This document shows, piece by piece, positions 30,901 to 46,780 of a DNA stretch of 64,000 nucleotides (positions within the stretch are counted from its first letter, which is position 1; every line of letters starts with the position of its first letter). The notes beneath the pieces were generated by a model that ran no database searches, had not been told where the DNA came from, and saw only the letters and a program-made list of their open reading frames with translations. Source of the stretch: Dyadobacter sp. 50-39 (GTDB taxonomy: Bacteria > Bacteroidota > Bacteroidia > Cytophagales > Spirosomataceae); contig MKSR01000001.1 in assembly GCA_001898145.1 (NCBI GenBank), forward strand, positions 173,242 through 237,241, given 5' to 3'. The position numbers were made by a program, and so were the translations under genes.

Positions 30901-30932
30901 AGCCGGTCGGAAGCAACTCCGGCCGGCTTTTT
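30901..30932 (+). terminator. intrinsic terminator of katG
   Basis: AGCCGGTCGG (30901-30910) pairs with CCGGCCGGCT (30919-30928) with one G-U pair and an 8-base loop, followed by five Ts. It is 23 bases after the katG stop codon and touches the 3' end of the convergent acyl-adenylating gene. Confidence 0.85.
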
Positions 30933-32463
30933 AATGCCTGCGGGATAGCAAAACTCGCAGCTTTTCGTAATCGATCTTTGAGTTGTGCCGCGGATCTCTG
31001 GGAATTTCAGACATGAAAACGACCTCAGTGAATGCATGCTCCATCACCGCCCGGACGGCACTTTGCCGGGAAGCGTCGCTGAGCTCGATCACGGCGGTAA
31101 GCTTTTCGTCAACAAGCATCATCGTCCCTATTTCCACGCCTTCTACGGATTGCAGACGATTCTCATAGAGGAACGTGGACAAAAAACCCTCCTGCGTGCG
31201 GATCAGCGATGAACACCTGCCGGTGAGATAAAGGCTCCCGTCCTCACCCAGGAAACCGCTGTCGCCGGTACGATGCCAGCATGTTGCCCCGACAAAAACC
31301 TTGTTACGTTTCAATGCTTCGGGATTATGCAGGTAGTCGCGCAGCACGTGAGGCCCCGAAACGATGATCTCGCCGATTTCACCCGCTCGCACTTCCAGTT
31401 GCGCGAGCGCTTCGTCATCGGCTGCGGAAATGCTCTCATCGGCGATTTCAATAATCCTGATACTGGCGGCCGCCTCAGTTTTTCCAACATTCAATCCCCT
31501 TTCCGTGTCCGAGCCGATCAGATCGTCCGCAGTAATCATGCTCATCGGTTCGGCTTCGGTGGAGCCATACACGATGCCGATGTGCGCGTCGGGAAATGCG
31601 GCCCGGTAGGCTTTCGCCTCGGAGGGAAAAACGGGTGCGCCGCCTGTCAGTATTTTTTGAATCCCATTCAAAAACAATTGCTTGTTCAGCAAATGCCGGG
31701 ATAACTGTCTTATAAAAAAGGGCGATGCGATGATCGAACTGACTTTGTGCCGGCTGATCTGTGATGCTATTCTCGCCGGGTCCATGGTATTGGGCTTTCT
31801 CGGATTGAAGTCGGCAAGGACAGATGTGGTACCGGCACCCAGGTTCATCAGCAAAACAATGGGTAACACCGGCATGCAAATGTCAGCGACAGTGGAGTTA
31901 AGAAGCGGGATCAATGCCTGAAACTGCTCAAAGAGGAGGCCGTGCGTCCGGATAGCCGCCTTGGGAACGCCCGTGCTGCCGGTGGTGAAGGTAATGAGCG
32001 CGGTATCGTCCGGGCTGGTGTCCGGAAAAGCCGACACCGGTAGGCTGGCATCGAATTTCAAGCCCATATGCAACGGGATCGATCGCAAACCGGGTAGCAG
32101 CCGGGCCAGCACGCGCCCTCTGAAAGTCCCGATGAAGGCCGCACATTGTGCCAGCCGACAGCATTCGCCCAGCCTTTTCACGCTCACCCATTCATCCAGG
32201 AATACCGCCACGGCCCCGATCCTGAATAATGCCAGCACAGTGCGGTACAGATCGCTGCTCATAGGTGCGAACACCAGCACACGATCACCCTTGCGGATGC
32301 CCTTGTGCAGGAAATACGTTGCTGTATGCACGACGGCACTTTCCAGGTCAACGAAAGAAATCGATTTTTCAAGATCGATAATGGCCGGACGGTCTGCATT
32401 CCGCCGGACGGCAGCATGGAAAAGATCGACGATGTTGAAGCGGTCAGCCAAGTTGTTTTCCAT
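30931..32463 (-). CDS. acyl-adenylating enzyme (OleC-like AMP-dependent synthetase/ligase)
   Basis: The 510-residue protein is an ANL-superfamily enzyme. It has the phosphate loop TFTTGSTGVPKAAIRT (about residues 155-170), the adenine motif GIVYGSTEAEPMS, the ribose motif LYLTGRCSSLI and the catalytic Lys in RDPRHNSKIDYEKLR. The RHNxKI tail is characteristic of OleC-like beta-lactone synthetases and related fatty-acyl ligases, so it adenylates a carboxylic acid; thioester formation or beta-lactone closure cannot be told apart here. ATG at 32463 starts before the domain and overlaps the upstream GNAT-like gene by 20 bases. It is the last gene of the seven-gene operon, just before the katG terminator on the other strand. 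Confidence 0.83.
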   Translation of the reverse strand: MENNLADRFNIVDLFHAAVRRNADRPAIIDLEKSISFVDLESAVVHTATYFLHKGIRKGDRVLVFAPMSSDLYRTVLALFRIGAVAVFLDEWVSVKRLGECCRLAQCAAFIGTFRGRVLARLLPGLRSIPLHMGLKFDASLPVSAFPDTSPDDTALITFTTGSTGVPKAAIRTHGLLFEQFQALIPLLNSTVADICMPVLPIVLLMNLGAGTTSVLADFNPRKPNTMDPARIASQISRHKVSSIIASPFFIRQLSRHLLNKQLFLNGIQKILTGGAPVFPSEAKAYRAAFPDAHIGIVYGSTEAEPMSMITADDLIGSDTERGLNVGKTEAAASIRIIEIADESISAADDEALAQLEVRAGEIGEIIVSGPHVLRDYLHNPEALKRNKVFVGATCWHRTGDSGFLGEDGSLYLTGRCSSLIRTQEGFLSTFLYENRLQSVEGVEIGTMMLVDEKLTAVIELSDASRQSAVRAVMEHAFTEVVFMSEIPRDPRHNSKIDYEKLRVLLSRRH

Positions 32464-33454
32464 ACAAAACGTAGTTTCGGTAACGGATACCCGAAAAATT
32501 GGCCGACAGCTTCGTCGAAGTGCCCTGCTCGTAAATAAATGAATGAATGGCGCTGGCATAACCCAGCTCCGCAGCTTTGCGGTAAATCACATTGCCGATC
32601 ACATGTCCCAGGCCTCTCCATACCGGATCGGGATGCCGGGCGAGCGTCTTGACGATCAGGGACTTATTTTTCACATTGTAAAAATCATGGATGCAAAAGA
32701 AGTAGCCGATCAGATTACCTGCCGCGTCCTCAGCCAGCAATGTCAGTTCGGGATTGATGTAGTCTTTCGTTTGCCTGTACTTTTTCATAAATGCCTCCCT
32801 GCTGATGGGGGTGTATAGAAAATTTTTCCTGAAAGCCAGCAGGTTAAAATCAAAAACCCGACCGATTTCCGTTTCGAAGTCAGCCAGGTCAATGGCCCTG
32901 ATCCTCACTCCCAGCGCACGTAATTCCCGCTCGCGAAGCAGAATCTCTGGGCTGTCGGGCTCCAATCCGTAGTCGATGTTGCTATAATATTGCGCGATGG
33001 GTTCGAAACCGGCCATTCTGAACTGTGCATTATAATACAAGTGATGGCAGGGCTCGGTAAAAAACAACGGATTTTGATGATCAGCCAGGAAACGATAGGC
33101 CTCCCAGGTGCTGCCGTTCATTGGCCCGACGAGCTGCTTGCCACCCCAGGATTTGACCGTCGAAACCATGTGTGCCAGCAGTTCGGACGCATACTCGTCG
33201 CAGTCGGCACATTCATAGTTCCCGATTGCAAAGGCGTGCTCACCCTGGTATTTCAGCAATGGGTTGTCATAAATACTCGCCCTGGCTACTGCATGGTCCC
33301 CGTCCTTTAATACGTAACACGCCCTGAGAAAGTCGATAGGAATGCTATCCGGCATTCTGAATCGCAGGCTGTCCGGCGGGTAAATGCGGCTAGGCAATCC
33401 GGTGAACATGTGAAAGTCCTGATCGCCCGGCCGGGTGGAAGTGATTGTGATCAT
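32444..33454 (-). CDS. GNAT-like N-acyltransferase protein
   Basis: The 336-residue protein resembles the large two-lobed GNAT relatives of unknown substrate. The N-terminal lobe has EHAFAIGNYECADCDEYA and GPMNGSTWEAYRF, typical of conserved proteins found near lipid or natural-product genes. The C-terminal lobe has a GNAT-like core: LTLLAEDAAGNLIGYFFCI, then the acyl-CoA-loop candidate RHPDPVWRGLGHVIGNVIY. It should be cytoplasmic and might transfer an acyl group to an amine. It starts inside the upstream kinase-like gene (ATGA overlap at 33451-33454) and overlaps the next gene by 20 bases. The assignment is by general pattern only. Confidence 0.65.
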   Translation of the reverse strand: MITITSTRPGDQDFHMFTGLPSRIYPPDSLRFRMPDSIPIDFLRACYVLKDGDHAVARASIYDNPLLKYQGEHAFAIGNYECADCDEYASELLAHMVSTVKSWGGKQLVGPMNGSTWEAYRFLADHQNPLFFTEPCHHLYYNAQFRMAGFEPIAQYYSNIDYGLEPDSPEILLRERELRALGVRIRAIDLADFETEIGRVFDFNLLAFRKNFLYTPISREAFMKKYRQTKDYINPELTLLAEDAAGNLIGYFFCIHDFYNVKNKSLIVKTLARHPDPVWRGLGHVIGNVIYRKAAELGYASAIHSFIYEQGTSTKLSANFSGIRYRNYVLYGKQLG

Positions 33455-34107
33455 AAGAGCAGACAGAGGGATGAAACGACACTGGCCGGAATGGTGAAAT
33501 TATCCATTCCCTTCACTCCCACCCCCTCGGCCGCAGTAGCCGCAAGGGATATCAGCAGCGCCGGGAATGCGCCTGGCAACGGAGCGCCCAAAGCAGGTAT
33601 TGCCACCACCGTCACCAGCAAGGCACTCGTGAAAAATGCCAGCGAACCGGTCGCCGACTTTCCGCACCCCATTATCCGGTACCTGCCAAAAGGGAAACGT
33701 TTGCCGGCAAGCGCCGCAACCGGATCGCAAATAGCCAGGATCAGGATCGGCAGGTAAAAGATAATGAGCCCCCTGCCTGCCATCTGATATACCAGAAAAA
33801 GCAGGTAGACGATTACCGGAAACAAAATGCTGCCATACGAAAACCGGTCGATCGCGTTGATGGATGGAAGCCATCCGAATTTCAGGCTCGCCAGCAGGAT
33901 CACCAGGAAGCTGGAACACAGAAACAGCACCTGCCAATGGCTGGTAAGTACGACCGGAAAAAGCAAGGTCAGCAGTCCGGTGCCGATATGAACGATCTTG
34001 CGCGTCCATTCAGCCCTGATTTTTCCAAAATGGTAGAGCAATTCTGCCAGAGCGAACAGCGCCAGAAAGCAGCAGGCAAGCAAAAGCGGTTGAATGATCT
34101 CTTTCAT
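33451..34107 (-). CDS. dolichol/phytol kinase-like membrane protein (diacylglycerol kinase DGK1/SEC59/VTE5 type)
   Basis: The 218-residue protein is made of about six to seven membrane helices. Family signatures are EWTRKIVHIGTGL after the first helix, LAICDPVAALAGKRFPFGR in the middle and the C-terminal AATAAEGVGVKGMDNFTIP, which match CTP-dependent dolichol, phytol and diacylglycerol kinases. In those enzymes a lipid alcohol is phosphorylated at the membrane. It sits in the operon with a prenyltransferase and an HMG-CoA reductase, which favours a polyprenol or terpenoid alcohol as substrate (inference). It is 18 bases downstream of the DUF3419 gene and shares an ATGA overlap with the next gene. 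Confidence 0.75.
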   Translation of the reverse strand: MKEIIQPLLLACCFLALFALAELLYHFGKIRAEWTRKIVHIGTGLLTLLFPVVLTSHWQVLFLCSSFLVILLASLKFGWLPSINAIDRFSYGSILFPVIVYLLFLVYQMAGRGLIIFYLPILILAICDPVAALAGKRFPFGRYRIMGCGKSATGSLAFFTSALLVTVVAIPALGAPLPGAFPALLISLAATAAEGVGVKGMDNFTIPASVVSSLCLLL

Positions 34108-34125
34108 AGCTAATGTGATAGTGCG

Positions 34126-35211
34126 TTACCGGATTTGGTCGACGATGAAGCTTTTGTAAAAAAAGCCTTTGTCGACTGCTGTCAAACGTTCGGCTTCCTG
34201 CTGTCTGAACTCAGAGATTCCGGGCAGTATCTCCGAAATGCGGCGCGGTACCATCAGGTTCCAGTAAGCGAGCCGCCCGGCCGGCTCCGTGCCAGCGACG
34301 AGCGCCTGCGCCGTTTCAAGGAACAGGTCCGGGGCCATGTACTCGAAGATATCAGAGAGGTTCATGCAGTGAAATTTTCCGTATTGCCCGATCGCGTGCT
34401 GGGCAAATCCCTCCTTCAAATGCAGCCGGCCCAGATTCTCGCGAACGAGCGCATAATTTGCCTTTTGAAGGTAATGCGGCAAAAGGCCATCGAAACTACC
34501 GGTGAGTGTGTAGCGTAAAATGAAGTTATCCTGGGCCGCCACCGAGGTGAGATGTGCCTCGGCCTTTTCAAAGATAAACCGTGAAACGGAGCCCTGTACC
34601 TGCTTCTGAAACTCGGGATCACGCCCATATTTGCCCATGACATATTTGCTGAAAAAGATACGGAACAGCAGCCGCCAGCGCCAGGTATTCCAGCGGGTAT
34701 CATAAAAATGCCGCTGCCCGTCGGCCGTCATGTTTGCAAACAGCGCCTGCACGACCTTCCTTGAATGAATCCAGGGTAATATTTTTCCGCTGAAAAGCTG
34801 GAAATACTTTTCAAACTTCCCCTGGTGAATTACACCGCCTTCGATCATTTGCTGGTTGGATTCCCAATATGCGCGGCAGCCGCTACTTAGCTGGCTTTTG
34901 AGCAGATGGAAACATTTGATCCTGTCTTCGGAGGGCGAAAACCCCAGGAAAGCCAGCGCCTCTTCCCATTCCAGGTTTTGAATGCATACCTTCTTCAACT
35001 CAATCAGAAAGAGCTGTATGCGGTTAATGTCCACTGCAACGACCAGCACGGGATCGGTCACCAGAAACGAAAAGCTATTGTCCCCCGCAGACCCGATCGA
35101 CAGGATTTTGCTTCCCGGCGCAGGCGATAAGCCGGCCAGCAGGATATCCGCATCCTCCCAGCAGTTGGCGTACCGGATGATTTCAAAATTGACCTTTTGG
35201 GTTAAATCCAT
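34126..35211 (-). CDS. DUF3419 family protein (BtaA-like S-adenosylmethionine-dependent transferase)
   Basis: The 361-residue protein begins with FEIIRYANCWEDADILL, the DUF3419 signature, followed by a Rossmann SAM-binding loop at residues 36-48 (ILSIGSAGDNSFSFL) and VAVDINRIQLFLIELKK. The C-terminal part has FHCMNLSDIFEYM and LAYWNLMVPR. Characterised family members (BtaA) move the 3-amino-3-carboxypropyl group of SAM onto diacylglycerol, making the betaine-lipid head group. No BtaB-like N-methyltransferase follows here, so the product would remain unmethylated or differ from DGTS. It is 4 bases downstream of the PEP-synthase-like gene. Confidence 0.82.
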   Translation of the reverse strand: MDLTQKVNFEIIRYANCWEDADILLAGLSPAPGSKILSIGSAGDNSFSFLVTDPVLVVAVDINRIQLFLIELKKVCIQNLEWEEALAFLGFSPSEDRIKCFHLLKSQLSSGCRAYWESNQQMIEGGVIHQGKFEKYFQLFSGKILPWIHSRKVVQALFANMTADGQRHFYDTRWNTWRWRLLFRIFFSKYVMGKYGRDPEFQKQVQGSVSRFIFEKAEAHLTSVAAQDNFILRYTLTGSFDGLLPHYLQKANYALVRENLGRLHLKEGFAQHAIGQYGKFHCMNLSDIFEYMAPDLFLETAQALVAGTEPAGRLAYWNLMVPRRISEILPGISEFRQQEAERLTAVDKGFFYKSFIVDQIR

Positions 35212-35215
35212 TTTG

Positions 35216-37696
35216 TCATTGGGAAATGGTCCTGATTATACCCGTACTGCCATCCATTTCAATTACATCTCCTGTTTTCAATGATTTCAGCAAACCGGTT
35301 ACACCCACAATACAAGGCTTACCCATTTCGCGGGACACAATCGCCGAGTGACTGAGCAAACTCCCGCGCTCTACGATAATGCCCGATGCACCCGGAAAAA
35401 GCGTTACCCATCCCGGGTCGGTGCTGGTCGTGACGAGAATGTCCCCATGCAGCGAATGTACCTCTGCCGGGTCGGTCACCACCTTTACGCGCCCGGTAAC
35501 TTTGCCGGGCGAGCATCCGATACCCTTTAAATCGCCCTCCGGCATTCCTACCCGCTCCGTGCTGAAAAAATCGTTGCCGTAGTAGGGCATTCCAAAGGTT
35601 GCAAACCGCTCCGAAAGCGGGCCCAGCCGGGTATAACTTTCGAATTCCTGCCGCCGCAATGCCACCAGCGCCCTTGTGTCCTGGGTAACCGCAGTGCCCT
35701 CGATGCAGGCAAAAATTTCCTCCTTGGTCAGGTAAAATATGTCCCTCGCATGATCCAGCACCCCATCGGCATGGAACCGCTTTCCTATGAAGGTAAAAAT
35801 CTCGCGCACGATCCCGAAAGCACGCGTACGCTCGTAACGCAGGTTCTCACGGGCGCTCACCAGCTCACGTGTGTAGCGTAGCGTGAGCCGCATCTGCCAG
35901 CGCCGCAGCGGCCTACCTTTCAAACGCCTCGCCACTTCCTGCTCCGCATTCCTGCGGATCATATCTTCCCGGTCGCCCGAAAACTGTGCTCCGGTGATGC
36001 CGGTTTCGACGTAGGATTTGAGCACTTTCACAAACCTGGCGGGCTCCTGGCCGTATGAGATCGTTTCCAGTTTCAGCTCGCCCACACAGCGTTCGCCGAA
36101 ATCGGCGATATAGCGGTCGATGGCATCCTTTACCTGCACCGCTGCCGCATCGGTACCGGCGTTCAGCGCATCGAGAATAGCGTATTCGTTTTGTTGTAAA
36201 AACAGGCTTTTCAATGCCGGAACAGCCGCAATACTTGCCGCAATGGCGATGCTGCGGTGCACCGGCTGCACCGAAATAATGTCATTGCTCCCGCACAGCA
36301 GGTCGTTGTGCAGGTTGGGATTACCGCCGCCGGTCAATTGCCCGCATTGTTTCTGCAGCATACCAAACCAGATCATGGCAAAAAAGTCGTTCAGTAGCGG
36401 CGCCTTCCATTCCAGCAGCAGTTTCCGCTCGAAATCAAGATAGAGCTGCATCAGTTCTTCGGCGCTTTTTTCACCGAACGGAATGGCTTTGTAAACGCCG
36501 ATGGTACGATCCACCAGCTGCATGAATTCACGGCGCTTTTGCGGCAGTGCCCTGAACCGGAAGAGCATTTGCACGGCCATTTTCAAGATGCTCCACCACG
36601 CTTTCCCTTTCGGTAAACGGTAGGATTCAGGAATGTCGAACTGCTCCTTTACGCCCATCATTTTCTCCATATACCGGGCATTGATGCTGTATCCCGGCAG
36701 CATGGCCAGCATATGGTACCAGGTTTTAAGGTTATAGTAAACCCGCCCGTTCAGAAAACCGAGCGTGTTGGCAAATACCCTCTCATTTTTCCTGATAACC
36801 GGTTCACTGACGCCCAGGTAGGCGCTGAAAAGCTTGTAGGCCACCTCGTAGGATTTGCTGATAAATGAGAATGTCAGCGGTGTGGTAACGCCCGGGTATG
36901 ACTCGATGATATTGCTGTTATCCCAAAGTATATAATTGCCCTCGGGCCTGGCCGCCAACGTGGTGATCGGCCTGGTCTGAAGCAAATAGATCTGATCATT
37001 CCGGACGGCGAATTCAATGTCCTGCGGTTGGCCCAGCGCCTCTTCGAGCATATCAAGTATTTCGCCAAGGCGGTAAATTTGCGCGTCAGTCAGAGCAGGC
37101 CGGGCATTTGTCGGACCGGCTAACACGGCTTGTATCCGGGTTCCCGTCAATGTAAACTGATCGGCATTGACTTCACCGGAAACCAGTTTGTCGCCCAGTC
37201 CGAAAACCGCATTGATCACCTTCTGCTGCCGGTTACCGGTAAGCGGGTTAGCGCCGAATGCCACGCCTGCCGCCTGGGCGTCGATCATTTCCTGTACGAT
37301 CACCCCGACGCCCTCCACAGCTGCCAGCCCATGATGCTTGCGATAGGCTGCTACCCGTTCCGAGCATACCGACTGCCGAACGGCCTCGATCCGCTCTGCC
37401 AGTTCATCAGGCAAAACAGACAAGTAGCTCTCGAATTGTCCGGCGAATGAAAATGCGGCCCCGTCTTCGCCGGCCGCCGAGGAACGCACGGCAAGCTGCC
37501 GCGTTCCTTCGAAAAATTCCAGCAGGCTGGCAGTCAGCCCGGGCATTGTACCTTTGGACAATGTCTCCCAGGGGATAACCACGAAGCGCGGCACAGGCAT
37601 CCCGAGGGCTTTCAGACGGAAAAGGTTTGCTGCCTTGCCGCCAATGATGGCGCCCGTCGTTCTCTGCGGCTCTGTATCGGGAATGAAATGCATCAA
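35216..37696 (-). CDS. PEP-synthase-like / phosphotransferase with ATP-grasp and phosphohistidine domains
   Basis: The 826-residue protein has an N-terminal ATP-grasp domain (IIGGKAANLFRLKALGMPVP, SSAAGEDGAAFSFAGQFESYL, IEFAVRNDQIYLLQTRPITT), a middle domain starting at ILWDNSNIIESYPGVTTPLTF and a C-terminal swivelling domain with the catalytic His at about residue 783 in RGSLLSHSAIVSREMGKP. The layout equals that of rifampicin phosphotransferase, but the middle substrate domain is quite different from the other copy in this window. It most likely phosphorylates a hydroxyl on the intermediate made by its operon (inference). Its start overlaps the stop of the UbiA gene (ATGA at 37693-37696); a second ATG follows immediately. 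Confidence 0.8.
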   Translation of the reverse strand: MMHFIPDTEPQRTTGAIIGGKAANLFRLKALGMPVPRFVVIPWETLSKGTMPGLTASLLEFFEGTRQLAVRSSAAGEDGAAFSFAGQFESYLSVLPDELAERIEAVRQSVCSERVAAYRKHHGLAAVEGVGVIVQEMIDAQAAGVAFGANPLTGNRQQKVINAVFGLGDKLVSGEVNADQFTLTGTRIQAVLAGPTNARPALTDAQIYRLGEILDMLEEALGQPQDIEFAVRNDQIYLLQTRPITTLAARPEGNYILWDNSNIIESYPGVTTPLTFSFISKSYEVAYKLFSAYLGVSEPVIRKNERVFANTLGFLNGRVYYNLKTWYHMLAMLPGYSINARYMEKMMGVKEQFDIPESYRLPKGKAWWSILKMAVQMLFRFRALPQKRREFMQLVDRTIGVYKAIPFGEKSAEELMQLYLDFERKLLLEWKAPLLNDFFAMIWFGMLQKQCGQLTGGGNPNLHNDLLCGSNDIISVQPVHRSIAIAASIAAVPALKSLFLQQNEYAILDALNAGTDAAAVQVKDAIDRYIADFGERCVGELKLETISYGQEPARFVKVLKSYVETGITGAQFSGDREDMIRRNAEQEVARRLKGRPLRRWQMRLTLRYTRELVSARENLRYERTRAFGIVREIFTFIGKRFHADGVLDHARDIFYLTKEEIFACIEGTAVTQDTRALVALRRQEFESYTRLGPLSERFATFGMPYYGNDFFSTERVGMPEGDLKGIGCSPGKVTGRVKVVTDPAEVHSLHGDILVTTSTDPGWVTLFPGASGIIVERGSLLSHSAIVSREMGKPCIVGVTGLLKSLKTGDVIEMDGSTGIIRTISQ

Positions 37697-38664
37697 TGGA
37701 AAACCAGTTTTGAGATCATTGGTCCGGCACCCAGTGCGAGATACATGGAAATCGTCCAGAGTGCCGATGCGTATTCAATCATTTTGGAAAATTTTGCAGT
37801 CTTGTTTCGCCAGAAAAGCAGTGCCGGTAAAGCGCAAATGACAAATACCACGCCCAGCACCAGCAGCACCGCCTGGCCATAGCCCGCAAATACCGAAGCG
37901 GCGATGCTTGCCAGCAGCGTTGCCACCAGCACTGCCAGCCATAGGCCGATGGCCCCGGAGGCACCGAGCATGGAAGTATAGGTCACTACCCCGTCCGATT
38001 CCTTCCCAGGTGCGCGGATCTTGCGACCTACTTCCAGTACTATGCCGTTCATATAGGACACGGCAAAAAAGAAAAACAGGCCGGCTGGTGCGGGAACCCC
38101 TGCCAGAAGCCAATCCAGGCCGCTGGCATAAATGTCGATAAGCGGAATGATGAACATATGCGATGTGACATACCAGAACTGGTGCTTTTTCAGCCATTCG
38201 GCCACGAAAAATTCTTTTCCCATCAACGACAGATACCCGATCACCACCACATATATCCACAGCATTCTAGGGAAGAAAACAAGGTTCAGCAGCACCTGCA
38301 TACACACAAGCACCACGCCCAGGATAGCCAGTTCCCGAAAGGTAACCAGCCCGCGGGGAACCGCCAGCTCTTTCCGGAACCGGGCGTCGTCTTCGGCGTC
38401 TTTGAACTCGTCGAAAATCCGGACCAGCAGGAAAAGGGATATGGTTGTAAATACGCCGACGGCGAATGTTGGCGCATCGACGAACCCTTCCGCACCCCGA
38501 CAGATCCTTGAATAGGAAATGGCAGAAAAGCTGAAAGCCGCCACCAGCAGCCCATGCCCCAGCAACGGGAAACGCTCTTTCTGATAAATATAGAACCGGC
38601 GGACAAACGGCGCACCGTTCTCTGCGGCATTGCTGAACGCATTTCCCTGAACCGGTAGCTTCAT
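37693..38664 (-). CDS. UbiA-family prenyltransferase-like membrane protein
   Basis: The 323-residue protein is predicted to have about eight to nine membrane helices. The Asp-rich loop LLVRIFDEFKDAEDDARFRKE (residues 80-100) matches the first metal/diphosphate motif of UbiA enzymes, and the later loop EVGRKIRAPGKESDG is at the place of the second. UbiA enzymes join a prenyl diphosphate to an acceptor inside the membrane. Because both loops deviate from the canonical NDxxDxxxD form, acceptor and donor cannot be guessed from sequence. ATGA overlaps connect it to HMG-CoA reductase (38661-38664) and to the next gene (37693-37696). Confidence 0.78.
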   Translation of the reverse strand: MKLPVQGNAFSNAAENGAPFVRRFYIYQKERFPLLGHGLLVAAFSFSAISYSRICRGAEGFVDAPTFAVGVFTTISLFLLVRIFDEFKDAEDDARFRKELAVPRGLVTFRELAILGVVLVCMQVLLNLVFFPRMLWIYVVVIGYLSLMGKEFFVAEWLKKHQFWYVTSHMFIIPLIDIYASGLDWLLAGVPAPAGLFFFFAVSYMNGIVLEVGRKIRAPGKESDGVVTYTSMLGASGAIGLWLAVLVATLLASIAASVFAGYGQAVLLVLGVVFVICALPALLFWRNKTAKFSKMIEYASALWTISMYLALGAGPMISKLVFH

Positions 38665-39938
38665 TTTTTACGACCGAATTTCTGGTGTGCTGCCGTAAAC
38701 CGGCCCGCCGATAGCGCCGCCGCAATGGAAATTTCGCCTGCCAGCACCAATGCGCCGCATATCTCGGCAAACTTGCGGGTTTTGCCCGCGCCATAGCAGC
38801 CCAGCATTTCCAGGCACTCTTTCTGGGTAGGCAGCGAAGTGCCCCCGCCTACGGTCCCGACGATCAGGTTCGGCAAGGTTACCGACACATACAAGCCCCC
38901 ATCGTCCAGCAGTTCCATGCGTGTGATGCCAACTGATGCTTCCGACACGCACGCAACGTCCTGCCCGGTTGCTATAAACAAGGCAGTAAGCCCATTGGCG
39001 TAATGGCCCTGCGCCCCTATCGCGCCGCTTTGAATGCTTCCGATGGTGGATGACCGCCAGTAGTCGGCCATGGCTGCCGGGCTGGTTTTGAGTACATCAC
39101 GGACAATATCCTGCGGCAGCGCAATTTCAGCGGTTATCTTTTTGCCCCGGACGTTTGCAAATGACTGGGAAGTAGCCTTTTTATCGCCTGAGAAATTGCT
39201 TTCGATAAACCAGAACTGAGGCTTCACCGGCGCATTCTCGATGATATACCGGCATATGGCGTCGGTGCAGATCGTGACCATATTTTGTCCGGCCGCATCG
39301 CCGGTGTGGTATTCGAATGTGAGAATAAGGTGATTGCCCTCCACATTTGATTTCATGTCGATCAGCTTCGCATAGCGGCTGGCCGACTCGGTAATGCGGT
39401 GAAAAGCTTCAAGCTGGCCCAGAATCCAGACCAGAAAAGTGCCCAGATTGCCCAGGTTGTCGAACTTGAAAACCGGCGAACGCTGTACACCATCGATGAG
39501 GCATACCGACGTTGCCCCGCCGGCCAGGTAGCAGGCCCTCGCGCCGCGATGGTAAGAGGCCAGTAAAGCGCCCTCACTGGTGGCCATGGGTATGTAAAAG
39601 TCCCCTTTGGCCACAGAACCCAGTACCGACACCGGCCCGATAACGCCTGTGGGCACCATCGACATCCCGATGTAGTTTTCGATATTGCCTTCCAGTCGCG
39701 AGACGTCCGAAAATGGCTGTTGCCCGCTCAGGTAAGGGAGCTCATTATTTGTTTTTTCCAAAAGGAAATCGAGTCTTTTCCGGACACCCTGGACCGAAAC
39801 AGGTATTTCGGCCGGGAGACTTTCCGGCAGCGGTTTACTGGCCGGTTTGTTCTTAATGTCTTCCAGTAACTGTTCAAGATCTTGCAGGGCGCTCATGGCG
39901 TGAAGCGCCTTTTTGGTGGTTTCGCTGGTTGAAGACAT
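38661..39938 (-). CDS. hydroxymethylglutaryl-CoA reductase, class I-like
   Basis: The 425-residue enzyme should reduce HMG-CoA to mevalonate with two NADPH. Catalytic residues are all present: Glu122 in ATSEGALLAS, Lys253 in FSGDKKATSQ, Asp327 in ATGQDVACVSE and His418 in FTAAHQKFGRK. The cofactor motif GDAAGQNMV and the glycine-rich LIVGTVGGGTSLPTQ are also there. The alignment is nearer to archaeal/eukaryotic class I enzymes than to the class II enzymes of Gram-positive bacteria. It has no sterol-sensing membrane part. ATG at 39938 was chosen over a TTG eight codons upstream. It is the first gene of the seven-gene operon. No other mevalonate-pathway gene is in this window. Confidence 0.9.
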   Translation of the reverse strand: MSSTSETTKKALHAMSALQDLEQLLEDIKNKPASKPLPESLPAEIPVSVQGVRKRLDFLLEKTNNELPYLSGQQPFSDVSRLEGNIENYIGMSMVPTGVIGPVSVLGSVAKGDFYIPMATSEGALLASYHRGARACYLAGGATSVCLIDGVQRSPVFKFDNLGNLGTFLVWILGQLEAFHRITESASRYAKLIDMKSNVEGNHLILTFEYHTGDAAGQNMVTICTDAICRYIIENAPVKPQFWFIESNFSGDKKATSQSFANVRGKKITAEIALPQDIVRDVLKTSPAAMADYWRSSTIGSIQSGAIGAQGHYANGLTALFIATGQDVACVSEASVGITRMELLDDGGLYVSVTLPNLIVGTVGGGTSLPTQKECLEMLGCYGAGKTRKFAEICGALVLAGEISIAAALSAGRFTAAHQKFGRKK

Positions 39939-40042: not shown

Positions 40043-41362
40043 TCACTTATTAAACAGGAAAGTTTGTCCAGCCTGTGTAAGACTAAACTCACCCTGCGCG
40101 GGCCGGAATTCTATCACCACACCTGCCGCATCAATTTTAAAAACGTCCTTTTTTACGGGCGCCAGCCAAAAATTCGGCTGACCGGTCGGTTGAGCGTAGA
40201 GCTTGCCATTGACGTGGGTGACTGTCATTTTCAACGGGATTTGCTTGCTGGAATACACTCCTGCATACAGCGCCAGTACCTCCGGGCTGAGCTGCATCGC
40301 ACGTAAGTCGGGGATGGTAACGGGGATTTTATAGTAGGCGCTCAGCAAAGCGATGATGATGTCATTGACCGGGTAATCCACGCCGTTGGAAAAAACCGCG
40401 GCTGCAAGGCTATCGGACGGATAGTAGGCTACCGATGTTACGAACCCATCCAGGCCACCGGTATGCCCGAAGCCCTTTTTGGCGTAAAAAGGGGCAGGTG
40501 CCAGCCCTATGCCGAATATGTCGACGGTCCTGGTCATTTCGGCCAGGCTCGCCTTCGATACCAGCTTGCCTTCAAACAGCGCATGATAGAATGCAGTCAC
40601 ATCACCCGGGGTTGAAACGATCGCCCCGGCACCCGCCGGTTGGCTGGGGTCGGTCTCCTCGCGTTTTTGCCATCCGCTTGCCATAGTATAGGAATACGCT
40701 TCGCCTTTCGCCGGGTCGATTTTACCGCCGAAACTCGTGTTTTTCAATTTGACACGGCTGAGAATGCGCTCCTGAAGATTCTTTGCGTAAGATTCGCGCG
40801 TCACATCTTCTATGATATAGCCAAGCAGGATGTAGCCGGTATTGCTGTATTTCGTCTCGGTGCCGGGCGTGAAGTCTGACTTATTCCCGGCGAAAATAGC
40901 AAGCATTTCGCTGCGGGTCTTTGGCTTGGTTTGCGCTTCCCAGTAAGCATCGTCGTCGGTAAAATTGTGGATGCCGCTGCGATGACGCAGGATCATTTCA
41001 AGGGTAATCTGGTCCGCATTAGGAATGGAAGGAAAGTATTGATCCAAATGCGTGTTCAATGCGAGTTTTTTTTCCTCCACCAGCTGCATGATCATCGTCG
41101 CGGTGAAAGTCTTGGTGATGGAACCGATGCGGTATCGCGTGGCGGGAGTCGCTTTCACGCCGTGCGCGCTGTCCACGACCGCGTACCCGATCGCTCTTTC
41201 GTAAATTTTTTGTCCTTTGTGCGTTACAATTACGCTTGCCATCGACTTCTGGTGCACTTCCAGCGAGTCGAAAAGCCGGTCGAGGTCGGCGCTGTTGATT
41301 TGCTGGGCCGAAGCGGAAAACGCGAAAAGCAATGCGGCGGTCAGTATCAGTGGGAGTTTCAT
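40043..41362 (-). CDS. beta-lactamase-like serine hydrolase (class C / PBP4*-type)
   Basis: The 439-residue exported protein (signal peptide ending AFSASAQ) has the active-site triad of penicillin-recognising enzymes: Ser81-x-x-Lys84 in GSITKTFTA, Tyr172-Ser-Asn in KYSNTGYILLGY and the HTGG box in GFGHTGGLDGFV. The C-terminal 100 residues form a small beta-domain common in these peptidase/esterase relatives. It may be a D-amino-acid peptidase, esterase or beta-lactamase; resistance cannot be inferred. ATG at 41362 gives a proper signal peptide, the upstream ATG does not. It is flanked by the HMG-CoA reductase operon and the S8 protease gene on the same strand, with separate gaps of 104 and 81 bases. 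Confidence 0.88.
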   Translation of the reverse strand: MKLPLILTAALLFAFSASAQQINSADLDRLFDSLEVHQKSMASVIVTHKGQKIYERAIGYAVVDSAHGVKATPATRYRIGSITKTFTATMIMQLVEEKKLALNTHLDQYFPSIPNADQITLEMILRHRSGIHNFTDDDAYWEAQTKPKTRSEMLAIFAGNKSDFTPGTETKYSNTGYILLGYIIEDVTRESYAKNLQERILSRVKLKNTSFGGKIDPAKGEAYSYTMASGWQKREETDPSQPAGAGAIVSTPGDVTAFYHALFEGKLVSKASLAEMTRTVDIFGIGLAPAPFYAKKGFGHTGGLDGFVTSVAYYPSDSLAAAVFSNGVDYPVNDIIIALLSAYYKIPVTIPDLRAMQLSPEVLALYAGVYSSKQIPLKMTVTHVNGKLYAQPTGQPNFWLAPVKKDVFKIDAAGVVIEFRPAQGEFSLTQAGQTFLFNK

Positions 41363-41443
41363 AGGAGGATATGATCTTTTTTGCAAATAAACCACATCGT
41401 CCGGATCTAAGGTAACCGATCGTCACATTTTACGTTACAAAAA

Positions 41444-44400
41444 TCAATGCACCACCACAATTTTGTGAACGCTGCGGGAGCCGTCGGCATAGTGGATGGT
41501 AACCCAATGCAGCCCGGGCACCAGTTTGGCAACGTCCAGCTCCGCCTGGTTTTCACCGGAAGCGTAGGTTATGGCTCCGGCGAGCGAATGCAGCTGTACT
41601 TTCAGAAACCGGCGGTTCCCACTGTGAATGTGCAGCTTGTCGGCTACCGGGTTGGGATAAAGCACCACCCGGGCATTGCCGGCGGTGCCGAAGTCAACGG
41701 AGACAATCCGGCTGTAAGCAAAAGGCGCGTTAGGCTGATCTGTCGCAAAATCGACCATTTTAAGCCTGTAATAGCCCACACCCTCCAATGGCGACGCGTC
41801 CACAGCCTCATACCGGTGCCCGCCTTCCCCTACCGCCGGGACACTGATGGGTAATGTCGTCCAGGTCTTCGCGTCGGGACTGCGCTGTACTTCGAAATGA
41901 CTCGCATTTTCCTCTTCTGCCGTTTGCCATTCCAGCAGTGTAGTGCCTTCTGCGGGTGTGGCCGAAAACGCCGCCAATCGAACGGGAAGTGCAGTACCGG
42001 ACCCAATGAATTCTTTGGCGAACCAGAATTCAGAAAAGCTTTTGGTAGTAAATTCCAAATAATATCCCTGTGCGTAAGGAACTTTTCGTACACTGCTTTT
42101 GGGATAAAAAGTCCATGACGCACTGCTGTTGTTGGTGATATCGCCGTCTTCATTGCTGCCTGAATACTTGGTAATGGCCAGTTCATAAGCCGACGTGGGT
42201 TTGGCGATACCCGCCTTGGTGGGCGCCGAAAGGAGCTTCTCGCATTCTTCGTCGGTAACATAAAGCCGCACCCCAACCGGCTGTGCGAAGTCGGACCGGG
42301 AAGCAGATATGGTAAAACTCCTGCCCAGAAAGTACTGCTTGTTGGCGATCCGCATGGGGCCATTATCCAAATAAGGGCGCACCGAAACCTGCCCTAATGA
42401 CTGTCCATTCGCATTGATAGCGGCCACAACCGAATTATGCAGCCGGAAAGGGACCCAATTGCTGACCTGCACATCGGCAGAGGCGGTTGAGTTGTCCGGC
42501 AGGGCATTGGCATACACCATTGCCTGTGAATCGTACAGATGGATATCGTCTATTGCGATCCCCGCGCGCCCGGCCGATTTGCTTTTGATCACAAAACGGA
42601 ACCTGACGTATCCGCCGGGAAAGTAGTTCGGGATCGGCACGGTAGCTACATGCCATCGGGTGTAGTCCTGCGCATTCCAGGCATCGGCATTATCCAGCCT
42701 CGCATTATACCAGTTGGTGCCGCTATTGACCGCCCCCAGCCGCATCCAGGTATTTCCGCTTACATTAAATTCTACATAGGCCATATCGCAAGCTCCGCCC
42801 GAACAGGCCGCCAGGTCCACCGAAGCGCTGAAACTGAGGGAGGGCTGAACCATACCTGTCATAGCAAAGCAGGGAGAATACAGGTAGGATGTCGTTTCGC
42901 CGGAACGCGACCCGCCAAGGTTGGTCGCCCAGGCGTTCGTGCCGCTGGCCGCTTCTGCAACCTTTGCGTTACGAGGCTGGCCGAAAGTCCACAAGCCGCT
43001 TGCTTCGGTCAGATACCATCCACCTTGGCCATTTTCGAAGTCTTCCAGGTAAGGAAAGCTGGAAATCATCTGTGCGGCCTTCGCAAGCGTCTCTCCGAAA
43101 TCATTGCCCCCGTTCTGGTCGAATGCTTTTTTTACCACAATCTTCACATTCCGGTCACTATTGAGCAATCTGGTCGAGGAAAAATGGAAAGTAAACAACG
43201 TATCGGCTCCGGCACGAACCACAGGCACATAGCCCTGATGCACAAGCTCATCGTTAATCAATGCCTCAAAGGGTATCCGGTAGCAATCCTCGTTACTATT
43301 GTTTTTGAAGACAACACTGTATTCCTGATAACCGTTGCTGTCGCAGGAAGGAATGGCGGACGTACTGACCTGCCTGACTTGCAGATCGCTCATGCTGGTA
43401 TAAAGGCGGATATCGTCTATGGTGGAGCCGTCCGTTTGCGCGGGATACCTGAAACTCTGCGCCCACCTCACCTGAAAACTGGTCGTAAATTCTTTACCGG
43501 CCCGTTTCAGCAAATCGCTCACTTCTATGGACATGAGCAGGTAGTTGTTGTTCCGGGTAAAATAAGGGACAATGCTGCTTTCCAAAGCTGGTATCCACGG
43601 CTCGGCGTCGTTCGCCCGGACGTACACTTGCAGGGGCCAAGCAGGCGGGTTCGCATCGTAGAGCCGGTACCGGAACGACAGACGGATCTCGTCCCTGCCG
43701 GTATGGTAAGCGGCAAGGTTGTAAGTGGCATCCAAATAGGTGGGGTATTGCGAATTCAACTGATTGTTCGCATCTACGGTAAAGGCTTTGGAACCCGAGT
43801 ACGCCTGCCCGGCCGACGTCCGCAACCGGCCCAGATCGCGGTCCTGTGAGAAATCGAACCGGTCGGCACCAGCTAACCCGATTGTATTCGCAGTCACCTC
43901 GGCGCCTTGAAGCGATTCGAGATCATCTGAAAAGGGCAGCGTTACCGGCGCGTTGGCTAACTGCCGTACCACCACCGACTTCTGGTTGTTCGCAGCGACC
44001 AGGTCGCCATCCAGCTTCACCTGCACGGTAAGCGCGTAGGTGCCCGGATTGTGCAGGTCGATCGTCTCGATGAAAGTATAGTCCAGGTATCCGTTCGCAC
44101 CGACATCGGAAGTGACCGTTTCCCAGTGTACAGCCACATCGCCACCGCCCAAAGAATAGCCCACCTGAAACGACTGGGTTACCGGCTGGTCATCGAAATT
44201 CCGCAACCGTATTTTGATTGCCTGAAATTGCCCCAGGCCGGTGGAAGTGAGCGCCCTGCCCGATCCGGACGGAGAGACGATCGCGTCCACTGCCAGGTCG
44301 CCGTCCAGCATAAAACCCTGGCACGTTCCCGAATCGGGCTTCCGGATCACCGCCACCGATCTTCGTCCGGGCAACCCGTCTTTTCTCGGCCTAACGGCTA

Positions 44401-46780
44401 TGTAATAGGTGGAATCTCGGGAGAGGCCATTGAGCACGTATTTCAGATCGGTCGTGGTAGCCACCGATCGCATCTCGCGGCTTTGCAAACGCATGACCTC
44501 GTAGTCGGTAGCGCCATTCACGGCCGTCCACTGCACTGCCGCATAGCCCTCACACTGGTTCGCCGAAAGCGTCATCACAGGGAGCCCCAGGATCGTAAAC
44601 GCCGCACTTTCCCTGGTCACACCTGTGCTGTTTTGGATGATGCGGACTTTTGCCGTCGTAGTGAATGCGTCGGGCACTGTCCAACTGAGCTGGTTGGTAC
44701 CTGCCGGCACGACATTGTTGAGACTGGTCCAGGAACCTCCGTCATTAAGCGAATACGAAACCGAAAATGTGCTGGCCGCATTACCGTAGCTATCCCAATT
44801 GATATCAATCACATCGCCTTTGGTGAGCCGCTCGCCTCCCGCGGGATAGGTGAGATCCGTGGAAGTTTCGATCACATCATAGACAACAAAATATTCTTGC
44901 GGGCCACTAGGAACCTTCCTGCCAAGGACATTGATCACATAGCTACCTGCCTCGGGGCCTTCGAGTACGATCTGCTCGGCGTTGTTTACGCTGTCCACGC
45001 CCGGCTCGGCAGCCGTATGCGGGGTGGCCGCCCTGGGAAAAGAGGGCAGCATCTCCGGTTTGCCTGTCCTGAGCACTTTCAGGTCCAGGTCATTGACGAG
45101 GCTCTGCTTTCCGGTAACCGCCGCGGGTGCCGGGTCATTCCAATACAGCATTATTTTGACCAGCGCGGTATTCGGCGGGACTGTTATTTCGTAACCATCC
45201 CTTCCCAGGTGGGCCAGGTTGCCATGAAAGTACTGTCCCTTTTCCATCATCGACACCGACCGCACCAGGTTCATCAGCCCGAACCCATACGTAAAATCCG
45301 GTCCCGAAAGTCCTTTGTCGGTCGCACCATTACACAGCAATGCCTTCATCAGCATATTTTTGGGGTTGCCGCCGCCATTCAGCTGCCGGTACCGCTGGTA
45401 CAACAACGCCAGCCCGCCCGCCACCGCGGGTGCGGCCATACTCGTTCCGGATGCCGACTGGTAGGTGTTTCCCGGAAGCGTCGAGAAAATGGACGTACCG
45501 GGAGCGACGATATCCGGCTTGATGCGGCCGTCCTGGGTAGGACCTTTGCTGGAAGAGGAAGAAATAAGGCCGTTGGCGCCCGTGCGGCCGGTGCTGATCA
45601 CATTCTTTGCTGAAATGCTGCCGCCGATGATGTTCCCGAAACCGGCAGCGACACCTTCACAAGATGCTTCGAGGCCGCTGTTACCGGCTGCAAAAACATG
45701 TTGCAGGTTGGGCAGATCACCGGCCTGCCGGTCCAGGATGTATGAATCGAAATTGTAAGAGCCGTAGTCGGGGCAGACGCTGCCGCCGTACGAGTTGTTG
45801 GTCACCATCATCCCGTAGTCGCGGGAGAGCGCCGAAGCCTGCTTCCATATTTCGGAGTTAATGCGTTTGACAATCGACGCTCCCGGCGCATACCCCTTGA
45901 ATTTCTCATTCATAAGCCCCCCACCGGCCGCAGTTCCGGAAACGTGCACGCCATGCCAGTAGGTACTTTCCACATCGTAGCTGAGAAGCCTGGTCGCTAC
46001 GTCGATGTGCTCGGTCAGGTTCCCGCTATCCCCTATCCCGATCGTCACCCCCTCGCCCGTGAGCTGTCTTTGCCCGGGCAAGGCCGAGGTAAGCAGGTTC
46101 GCCCGCGTTGCAGCCTCGCTTTTGTCGTTGAGCGGCTCGTCGCGCGGCGGTACGGCCTCGATGAACTGGACCCAGGGCAGCCCAGCCAGTGCAAGCAGGC
46201 TATCGGCAGCCACTCTTACTTCGATGAGTTGGTATGCACTCAGATCACTAGGGATCACCTGAACCTGACGGTCAGCGAGTTCTTTTAATACCTCCGCGGC
46301 GGGCATTGTCTTTACGAAGCTGATGCGCACGTCGATCTGGCCTGGCTGACTTAAAGCATGGGGCGGAATAGCAGGTCCCAGCAGGGCGGGCTGGATCTTC
46401 TGTGCTGGTTCCAGTTGCACGATCGTCCTGACGCCGGCAGCCCGCAATATTTCCCTGTCAGGCTCTGCCGGCACGACAGCGGTATAGGCATGCTCCGGGA
46501 CGTAGTCGAGCAAGGTGATGCCGGCACCTTTCAGCACCGCGGTCTCTCTTGCGCCCGGGATCCTGAAAAATTGGATTATTACAAATTTAAACTCTTCACT
46601 TTTCGCAGTTCTAAGCGTCTTATCCGGGCGGTTTTGGGGGAGTGAAATACCCGGCAAAGGGGTAATTGTACCACTTTTAATGAACAGGTCGTAATCCCTG
46701 TTACTTTGAGCCGTAACGTTTGTTAGGTGCTGTACCAGTAGTACTACTACAAGAGCACAGCGATACTTTAACATACGCAT
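41444..46780 (-). CDS. giant subtilisin-like (S8) protease with type IX secretion C-terminal domain
   Basis: The 1778-residue exported protein has a signal peptide ending near NVTAQ, then an S8 domain at about residues 230-520 with the catalytic Asp in GIGDSGNLTEH, His in HGVHVSGTAAGGG and Ser in ASGTSMAAPAVAGG. A P-domain-like jelly roll follows (IMLYWNDPAPAAV), then an Ig/T9SS-type domain, a fibronectin type III domain (WTAVNGATDYEVMRLQ), two MAM-like adhesion domains and, in the last 80 residues, a type IX sorting domain (VVLYPNPVADKLHIHSG ... SVHKIVVVH). It is expected to be secreted or attached to the cell surface. The HGVHVSGT in place of the common HGTHVAGT is a small deviation. It may degrade proteins or act with adhesins. 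Confidence 0.9.
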   Translation of the reverse strand: MRMLKYRCALVVVLLVQHLTNVTAQSNRDYDLFIKSGTITPLPGISLPQNRPDKTLRTAKSEEFKFVIIQFFRIPGARETAVLKGAGITLLDYVPEHAYTAVVPAEPDREILRAAGVRTIVQLEPAQKIQPALLGPAIPPHALSQPGQIDVRISFVKTMPAAEVLKELADRQVQVIPSDLSAYQLIEVRVAADSLLALAGLPWVQFIEAVPPRDEPLNDKSEAATRANLLTSALPGQRQLTGEGVTIGIGDSGNLTEHIDVATRLLSYDVESTYWHGVHVSGTAAGGGLMNEKFKGYAPGASIVKRINSEIWKQASALSRDYGMMVTNNSYGGSVCPDYGSYNFDSYILDRQAGDLPNLQHVFAAGNSGLEASCEGVAAGFGNIIGGSISAKNVISTGRTGANGLISSSSSKGPTQDGRIKPDIVAPGTSIFSTLPGNTYQSASGTSMAAPAVAGGLALLYQRYRQLNGGGNPKNMLMKALLCNGATDKGLSGPDFTYGFGLMNLVRSVSMMEKGQYFHGNLAHLGRDGYEITVPPNTALVKIMLYWNDPAPAAVTGKQSLVNDLDLKVLRTGKPEMLPSFPRAATPHTAAEPGVDSVNNAEQIVLEGPEAGSYVINVLGRKVPSGPQEYFVVYDVIETSTDLTYPAGGERLTKGDVIDINWDSYGNAASTFSVSYSLNDGGSWTSLNNVVPAGTNQLSWTVPDAFTTTAKVRIIQNSTGVTRESAAFTILGLPVMTLSANQCEGYAAVQWTAVNGATDYEVMRLQSREMRSVATTTDLKYVLNGLSRDSTYYIAVRPRKDGLPGRRSVAVIRKPDSGTCQGFMLDGDLAVDAIVSPSGSGRALTSTGLGQFQAIKIRLRNFDDQPVTQSFQVGYSLGGGDVAVHWETVTSDVGANGYLDYTFIETIDLHNPGTYALTVQVKLDGDLVAANNQKSVVVRQLANAPVTLPFSDDLESLQGAEVTANTIGLAGADRFDFSQDRDLGRLRTSAGQAYSGSKAFTVDANNQLNSQYPTYLDATYNLAAYHTGRDEIRLSFRYRLYDANPPAWPLQVYVRANDAEPWIPALESSIVPYFTRNNNYLLMSIEVSDLLKRAGKEFTTSFQVRWAQSFRYPAQTDGSTIDDIRLYTSMSDLQVRQVSTSAIPSCDSNGYQEYSVVFKNNSNEDCYRIPFEALINDELVHQGYVPVVRAGADTLFTFHFSSTRLLNSDRNVKIVVKKAFDQNGGNDFGETLAKAAQMISSFPYLEDFENGQGGWYLTEASGLWTFGQPRNAKVAEAASGTNAWATNLGGSRSGETTSYLYSPCFAMTGMVQPSLSFSASVDLAACSGGACDMAYVEFNVSGNTWMRLGAVNSGTNWYNARLDNADAWNAQDYTRWHVATVPIPNYFPGGYVRFRFVIKSKSAGRAGIAIDDIHLYDSQAMVYANALPDNSTASADVQVSNWVPFRLHNSVVAAINANGQSLGQVSVRPYLDNGPMRIANKQYFLGRSFTISASRSDFAQPVGVRLYVTDEECEKLLSAPTKAGIAKPTSAYELAITKYSGSNEDGDITNNSSASWTFYPKSSVRKVPYAQGYYLEFTTKSFSEFWFAKEFIGSGTALPVRLAAFSATPAEGTTLLEWQTAEEENASHFEVQRSPDAKTWTTLPISVPAVGEGGHRYEAVDASPLEGVGYYRLKMVDFATDQPNAPFAYSRIVSVDFGTAGNARVVLYPNPVADKLHIHSGNRRFLKVQLHSLAGAITYASGENQAELDVAKLVPGLHWVTIHYADGSRSVHKIVVVH

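Follow-up and report, generated by a model that had tools for sequence, protein, structure and literature searches.

A conserved seven-gene operon of Bacteroidota with a changed HMG-CoA reductase homologue and a probable role in lipid synthesis

Why should a bacterium encode a homologue of 3-hydroxy-3-methylglutaryl-coenzyme A (HMG-CoA) reductase in one operon with a prenyltransferase, a phosphotransferase and an acyl ligase? The locus that raises this question lies at positions 30931-39938 of a 64,000-nucleotide stretch of Dyadobacter sp. 50-39 (contig MKSR01000001.1, positions 173,242 to 237,241; hereafter the window), where the list of open reading frames (ORFs) contains seven closely packed genes, all on the minus strand, in agreement with a preliminary description of this DNA. 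Genomes and loci are denoted by G and L numbers, respectively, and G000 is the window genome. The cluster is a real, conserved biosynthetic operon and probably encodes a lipid pathway. In our best reading, which we hold at a probability of about one half, the seven genes form one dedicated pathway to an unusual lipid, in which an activated carboxyl group would be reduced to an alcohol and then phosphorylated, and the reductase and the kinase would belong together without being strictly coupled.

Relatives were collected by scanning a collection of species genomes with an alignment of the phosphotransferase. The scan yielded 320 relatives, and the locus counts given here rest on the best 80 of these 320. 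All seven genes are present in 57 of the 80 loci, including L056, whose weak ligase match lies some 7 kb away. The operon is not a chance assembly, because gene order and strand are identical in 57/57 complete loci; conserved order across Bacteroidota was the test that the preliminary description had set for itself, and its expectation held. No extra ORF of at least 90 aa separates the seven genes in 31 of the 57, and their pairwise protein distances give r values of 0.71-0.93 across the 57 loci. The remaining 23 loci are mostly cut by contig ends, and L096 holds the phosphotransferase alone. By record titles, all 80 loci belong to Bacteroidota, many of them to metagenome-assembled genomes (MAGs); the hosts include Dyadobacter, Rhabdobacter, Sphingobacterium, Parapedobacter, Fluviicola, Saprospiraceae, Portibacter, Flavobacteriales and others.

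Gene 1 (38661-39938, minus strand) encodes a class I-type HMG-CoA reductase homologue of 425 aa (PF00368, E 3e-114). Residues were compared in human numbering, which was taken together with the HMG contacts from the available portion of PMC9500038. The catalytic residues Glu559, Lys691, Asp767 and His866 (E122, K253, D327 and H418 in the window protein) are invariant in 65/65 operon copies, as are Arg590, Asn686, Asp690, Lys692 and Asn755. In contrast, Ser684 is replaced by Glu in 65/65, and Lys735 by Ser in 50, Thr in 9 and Ala in 6 (E246 and S296 in the window protein). In the same portion of PMC9500038, Lys735 is the salt-bridge partner of the terminal carboxylate of HMG, and Ser684 makes a polar contact. 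Both residues are kept in the human and Methanothermococcus control reductases, and also in a Streptomyces control that adjoins mvaD, phosphomevalonate kinase, fni and HMG-CoA synthase genes. Judged from these residues, the enzyme probably acts on a substrate other than HMG-CoA. We only suggest that the negatively charged Glu246, which sits at an HMG contact, would suit a substrate whose group at that place is an amine or is neutral.

In a tree of 64 reductases, rooted on the human enzyme with Methanothermococcus as the sole other reference, the 62 Glu-type sequences form one group (support 1.0), inside which the 58 operon reductases again form one group (0.957). Glu-type homologues outside the operon include the kinase fusions described below and proteins of 517-518 aa from two genomes, which have an N-terminal extension and carry Glu and Val at the HMG sites (L155:7512-9065 and L156:8373-9929); no operon-type gene was found in the fetched stretch of either locus. 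In homologues from Vibrio and Photobacterium (L195, L199 and L200), which reach 52% identity with gene 1 across 80% of its length, sites 684 and 735 are Asp and Met, and no other operon-type gene lies within 10 kb on either side. An Alteromonas relative has Ala and Tyr at the two sites, and a Sinorhizobium relative also differs at Arg590; these relatives and those from Vibrio and Photobacterium all lie outside the tree.

The reductase gene is associated with kinase genes both inside and outside the operon. Among 66 assessable loci, 60 have both the reductase and the kinase, none has the reductase alone, three have the kinase alone and three have neither (Fisher p 4.4e-4, uncorrected for kinship); L062 has no kinase, and the reductase is not assessable there. 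In two MAGs, G228 and G229, the operon contains neither gene, and a Glu-type reductase fused to an APH-type kinase is encoded elsewhere. The kinase parts of these fusions match the profile at E 1e-36 and 5e-34, respectively, Pfam shows both domains in G228, and both fusions have Glu at the 684 site and Pro at the 735 site. G231 provides only a contig-edge piece of a Glu-type reductase. Another reductase-kinase fusion with Glu, of 958 residues between stops (343.6 and 191.5 bits), is located on a complete Streptomyces plasmid and adjoins a GH3-type acyl-activating gene (named by eye). The fused kinase is homologous to the APH-type kinase gene of all five loci of a distant version of the cluster (Pfam run on one), which was found in 5 of 200 genomes of the same family.

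Genes adjacent to the operon support the lipid context that had been proposed for it. A cytidylyltransferase (CTP_transf_1) gene and a CDP-alcohol phosphatidyltransferase gene occur together in or beside the operon in 15/80 loci (Pfam run on two of each). In 12 of those 15 the pair is inserted between the reductase and UbiA genes, and the reductase and kinase are present in 15/15. Next after the fusions of G228 and G229 come a CarS-like gene and a CDP-alcohol transferase gene; the G228 protein scores above the CarS cut-off, and the G229 gene, which gave no match, was called by similarity to that of G228. A Microscilla genome, G213, carries the cytidylyltransferase/transferase pair alone on another contig, the transferase match containing one internal stop. 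A START-type (SRPBCC) gene is found with 14/80 loci. Related genes were also observed in other arrangements: G215 (L189, 9001-14863) has a paralogous set of CarS-like, UbiA, PEP-synthase-like paralogue and CDP-alcohol transferase genes; the fusion sets of G229 (L167) and G228 (L168) lie near desaturase and ICMT-like genes, with a PEP-synthase-like paralogue in G229; and in two Streptomyces (L192 and L193) a PEP-synthase-like gene stands with AfsA-type and ICMT-like genes.

The other six genes, likewise on the minus strand, fit the families named in the preliminary description: Pfam places genes 3, 4 and 7, as it does gene 1, the UbiA match lies just under its cut-off, and genes 5 and 6 were placed through homologues and structure models. 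Gene 2 (37693-38664; 323 aa) encodes a UbiA-type prenyltransferase, with 30.1 bits (E 4e-7) against PF01040 at a cut-off of 34.2, and 88.7 bits against PRK13592 at a cut-off of 443; a homologue on a Roseinatronobacter plasmid (see below) reaches 43.9 bits against the Pfam cut-off of 34.2. The first Asp-rich motif of gene 2, RxxDExKDxxxD, is kept, and the motif residues are at least 97% conserved in 73 sequences. Gene 3 (35216-37693; 825 aa) encodes a phosphoenolpyruvate (PEP)-synthase-like phosphotransferase with an ATP-binding domain (PPDK_N, PF01326) and a swivelling-His domain (PEP-utilizers, PF00391); H782 is invariant in 7 aligned sequences, and there is no PEP-binding barrel among its Pfam matches. 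The nearest Protein Data Bank (PDB) chains to gene 3 are 5hv2, 5fbs and 5hv1, which we take to be rifampin phosphotransferase. Genes 2 and 3 are direct neighbours in 71/74 loci that have both.

Gene 4 (34126-35211; 361 aa) encodes a DUF3419 (BtaA-like) protein covering positions 5-382 of the 385 in PF11899 (E 1.2e-60), and sequence searches of the PDB with the DUF3419 and GNAT proteins returned nothing at E up to 1. A methyltransferase gene stands beside the DUF3419 gene in L054. The window genome has a second DUF3419 gene on contig C47 (L036:4465-9449), in a different cluster with UbiA and an AIR-synthase-like gene, and the distant DUF3419 loci L033-L037 lie in other gene contexts. Gene 7 (30931-32463; 510 aa) encodes an AMP-forming acyl ligase (PF00501, E 7e-45) in which the adenylation motifs and the C-terminal Lys are kept; K496 is at least 97% conserved in 64 sequences.

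Pfam matched neither gene 5 nor gene 6 in the window copy. Gene 5 (33451-34107; 218 aa) encodes a membrane protein that we tentatively assign to the CdsA/CTP-dependent lipid-kinase superfamily: 15 of 48 homologues weakly match CTP_transf_1 (best E 5e-5), and the model (pLDDT 95.6) is nearest to the CDP-DAG synthetase CdsA (4q2e; E 0.016, probability 0.99), with a TM-score of only 0.31-0.36. We read gene 5 as a putative lipid-alcohol kinase. A separate CTP_transf_1 protein accompanies it in 15 loci; the distant version has no gene-5 match, and its APH-type kinase gene stands there instead. Gene 6 (32444-33454; 336 aa) encodes a tandem-GNAT N-acyltransferase-like protein: 27 of 47 homologues give Acetyltransf_1 matches (best E 6e-7), and its predicted structure (pLDDT 95.1) has a tandem-GNAT fold (Foldseek E 8e-15 to 7q3a).

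How might these enzymes act together? In the scheme that we favor, the substrates, the sequence of steps and the product are all inferred. Going by the names of their families, UbiA, the phosphotransferase, the DUF3419 protein and the GNAT would build a carboxyl-bearing lipid by supplying the prenyl chain, a step of phosphorylation or ligation, an amino-carboxypropyl group derived from S-adenosylmethionine and an N-acyl group, respectively. BtaA-type DUF3419 enzymes add an amino-carboxypropyl group; such a transfer would thus supply a carboxyl for the route through genes 7 and 1, together with the amine that the GNAT would acylate. The acyl ligase (gene 7) would convert the carboxylic acid to a CoA thioester, gene 1, with a pocket no longer suited to HMG, would reduce the thioester to a primary alcohol, and the membrane kinase (gene 5) would phosphorylate it. 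The phosphate might then be converted to a CDP-lipid and receive a head group, either by the extra genes where they are present or by housekeeping enzymes. A more specific version of this scheme, which we consider quite unlikely, is a ceramide-like phospholipid whose synthesis would do without serine palmitoyltransferase: a prenyl or alkyl alcohol would receive a homoserine unit through DUF3419, the GNAT would acylate the amine of this unit, the ligase and reductase would turn its carboxyl into CH2OH, and the kinase, cytidylyltransferase and CDP-alcohol transferase would add a phospho head group.

The scheme has to be set against the mevalonate-making role in which gene 1 had been described. 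A genuine HMG-CoA reductase, providing mevalonate as a building block or for isoprenoids, would account for the full-length Pfam match and the complete set of catalytic residues, and HMG-CoA could derive from leucine breakdown without HMG-CoA synthase. This role is very unlikely given that both HMG contacts are changed in 65/65 and that gene 1 scores 333.8 bits against TIGR00533, below the cut-off of 441.8. The window genome also has DXR and a single reductase, gene 1, and diphosphomevalonate decarboxylase (MDD) was not found in it. MDD was found in 7 of 15 operon genomes, and each of the seven has an additional reductase whose score falls in a lower band (279 to 307 bits); of these, one exceeds the cut-off of the class II model TIGR00532, that of L153 was compared by eye, and five were assigned by score and length. 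Reductases were counted in 12 of the 15 genomes (G196, G166 and G024 lie outside the count), and the five counted genomes without MDD comprise four with one reductase and G213 with two of the high band. The HMG-CoA synthase models PF01154 and PF08540 matched nothing in G000, yet they matched only 1/7 MDD genomes, and the absence of the synthase was therefore dropped as evidence. Five GHMP kinase matches were obtained in G000. From the HMG contacts, the TIGR00533 score and the DXR/MDD pattern, we rejected the mevalonate role as the leading explanation; gene 1 is very probably not a mevalonate-pathway enzyme.

Two further explanations were considered. Plant tocopherol salvage works by phosphorylation of a prenyl alcohol in series, and here a VTE5-like kinase and the PEP-synthase-like enzyme might similarly convert a prenyl or allylic alcohol to the diphosphate for UbiA, the alcohol being made by the reductase from the acyl-CoA of the ligase. 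Salvage of this kind is possible but unlikely: the superfamily of gene 5 includes lipid-alcohol kinases, UbiA and the phosphotransferase adjoin in nearly all loci that have both and the paralogue pair recurs at the second G215 locus, but dikinase-type enzymes generally yield monophosphates, and it leaves unexplained why cytidylyltransferase and CDP-alcohol transferase genes accompany the reductase and the fusions. We also regard as unlikely that the product is a secreted small molecule (a signal, a siderophore-like compound or an antibiotic) instead of a membrane lipid. The patchy distribution (the operon-like GNAT in 9/392 phylum genomes and the close DUF3419 copy in 7/200 family genomes, see below), the biosynthetic-looking genes, named by eye, beside the Streptomyces fusion, and the MMPL-type exporter gene flanking the distant version in 4/5 loci, the fifth being cut by a contig end, speak for it, whereas partner genes of the CTP_transf_1, CarS-like and CDP-alcohol transferase types suggest phospholipid chemistry.

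Several observations weigh against our own scheme of reduction followed by phosphorylation. The Glu substitution is also present in HMG-CoA reductase homologues outside the operon and therefore does not alone define the substrate of the operon. At least 7 of the 15 loci with extra cytidylyltransferase and transferase genes are near-identical Sphingobacterium-type neighbourhoods, and the Fisher figure ignores the relatedness of loci. No close copy of the CDP-alcohol transferase was found in Dyadobacter genomes (39.7 bits in G000); the last step in the window genome is therefore absent or carried out by housekeeping enzymes. The kinase occurs without an adjacent reductase in 3/66 assessable loci (L059, L079 and L106); of their genomes, G217 has no HMG-CoA reductase, G230 has one of the lower band and G204 has a Glu-type one elsewhere. 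The five genomes with the distant version, one of them 71% complete, keep the ligase and kinase and have no HMG-CoA reductase match genome-wide. From these loci, the kinase and the ligase have work to do without the reductase, and a strict kinase-reductase coupling, which we had entertained, is weakened. Finally, the scheme presumes that the acid of the ligase and the acyl-CoA of the reductase correspond, and they may differ.

How widely is the operon distributed? In a DUF3419 search of 200 genomes of the same family, 18 had any match and 7, including the window genome, had a close copy (at least 58% identity). No DUF3419 match was obtained in 20 or more genomes of the window's own genus. Among six close neighbours, five have all seven genes in order, and the sixth is cut by a contig end. 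An operon-like GNAT scoring at least 240 bits was found in 9/392 phylum genomes, the next score being 130, with synteny checked only for the window genome, and the operon thus looks uncommon in Bacteroidota. The prevalence of the GNAT profile at E 0.001 (380/392) was rejected as a count of operons, since most matches are weaker; a relative of gene 6 in the window genome, a GNAT of about 380 residues (L166:1630-2751), is typical of these. The genes inserted between operon genes in L054, L077, L100 and L120, which were scanned with L055 left out, encode a methyltransferase, a peptidase, an oxidoreductase, a Fic protein and a secreted protein, and look like single cases. In four of the five distant-version loci (L028, L030, L031 and L032) the exporter gene adjoins UbiA; the contig of the fifth ends in UbiA.

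Beyond Bacteroidota, we searched plasmid and phage collections, and the whole seven-gene unit is present in a second phylum. In the alphaproteobacterium Roseinatronobacter sp. S2, a plasmid encodes UbiA, phosphotransferase, DUF3419, kinase, GNAT and ligase in the order of the operon. Its gene table contains no reductase because the reductase gene spans the start of the record: tblastn and profile searches located its two halves at the two ends of the record, and the residues at sites 684 and 735 are Glu and Val, respectively. A plasmid version without reductase was accordingly rejected. The operon is intact in named Dyadobacter and Sphingobacterium isolates and on a proteobacterial plasmid. 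Among phage records, 28 match part of gene 3 and none matches over 80% of it, and a scan of viral contigs with two peptide patterns confirmed no relative.

The gene junctions in the window are tight. The preliminary description had listed three ATGA overlaps; base-by-base reading upholds those at 38661-38664 (genes 1/2) and 33451-33454 (genes 5/6), but the junction of genes 2 and 3 is TTGATG, where the ATG at 37693 overlaps the TGA by one base. Its other junctions stand: gaps of 4 bases at 35212-35215 (genes 3/4) and 18 bases at 34108-34125 (genes 4/5), and a 20-base overlap of genes 6 and 7 at 32444-32463. The G+C content of the operon, 54.0%, matches the 53.7% of the window. Upstream on the same strand, at 40043-46780, lie genes for a beta-lactamase-family hydrolase and a 1778 aa subtilase; homologues of each are upstream in 7/80 loci.

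If our reading is right, a much-studied medical enzyme family, the target of cholesterol drugs, has a bacterial branch that acts on another acyl-CoA, and a two-residue mark separates this branch in genomes whose annotation would be HMG-CoA reductase. The kinase fusions give a direct prediction, reduction and then phosphorylation, and, as a self-contained unit, the operon offers a target in the search for a new lipid. Should the ceramide-like version hold, it would be a third route to two-chain phospholipids besides acylation of glycerol phosphate and sphingoid condensation, and one able to move between phyla on plasmids.

As the preliminary description had supposed, the set has no published counterpart among the matches listed in a search of full-text literature, whose coverage leaves subscription journals and preprints mostly outside; nor is the operon shown in the available portions of PMC9235831, PMC12419801, PMC3875450, PMC9500038 and PMC7852524. 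The ebo cluster around EboC/UbiA-297 (PMC9235831, available portion) is likewise a conserved gene set around a UbiA enzyme in Bacteroidota, but gene 2 scores only 18.8 bits against the EboC model (cut-off 250), and Pfam and curated models found no Ebo family among the other six operon genes, the search being confined to these. Gene 7 has OleC beta-lactone synthetase and the PRK09274 ligases among its nearest models, yet reaches only 198 bits against 900 for OleC and 342 against 478 for PRK09274, and the operon has no other olefin-pathway gene. Gene 3 resembles enzymes of the rifampin phosphotransferase and prodigiosin ligase PigC type in its ATP-binding and swivelling-His domains but falls below the curated cut-offs of all 25 models listed. 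Gene 4 resembles the BtaA of betaine-lipid synthesis in its nearly full-length DUF3419 match, whereas the operon has no N-methyltransferase among its seven genes and partners it with UbiA, phosphotransferase, GNAT and reductase. The archaeal-type ether lipid genes of the FCB group, as given in the available portion of PMC7852524, likewise include a UbiA-family enzyme, and CDP activation and a CDP-alcohol transferase are shared by some operon relatives; the operon differs in having a kinase and, in addition, the reductase, DUF3419, GNAT and ligase genes. GGGP synthase is not among the seven genes by Pfam, and no genome search was aimed at it. Gene 1 itself is akin to class I HMG-CoA reductase in family, length and the catalytic Glu, Lys, Asp and His, and departs from it at the equivalents of Ser684 and Lys735 in 65/65 operon copies, in its lipid-type operon setting and in the APH-kinase fusions of its relatives.

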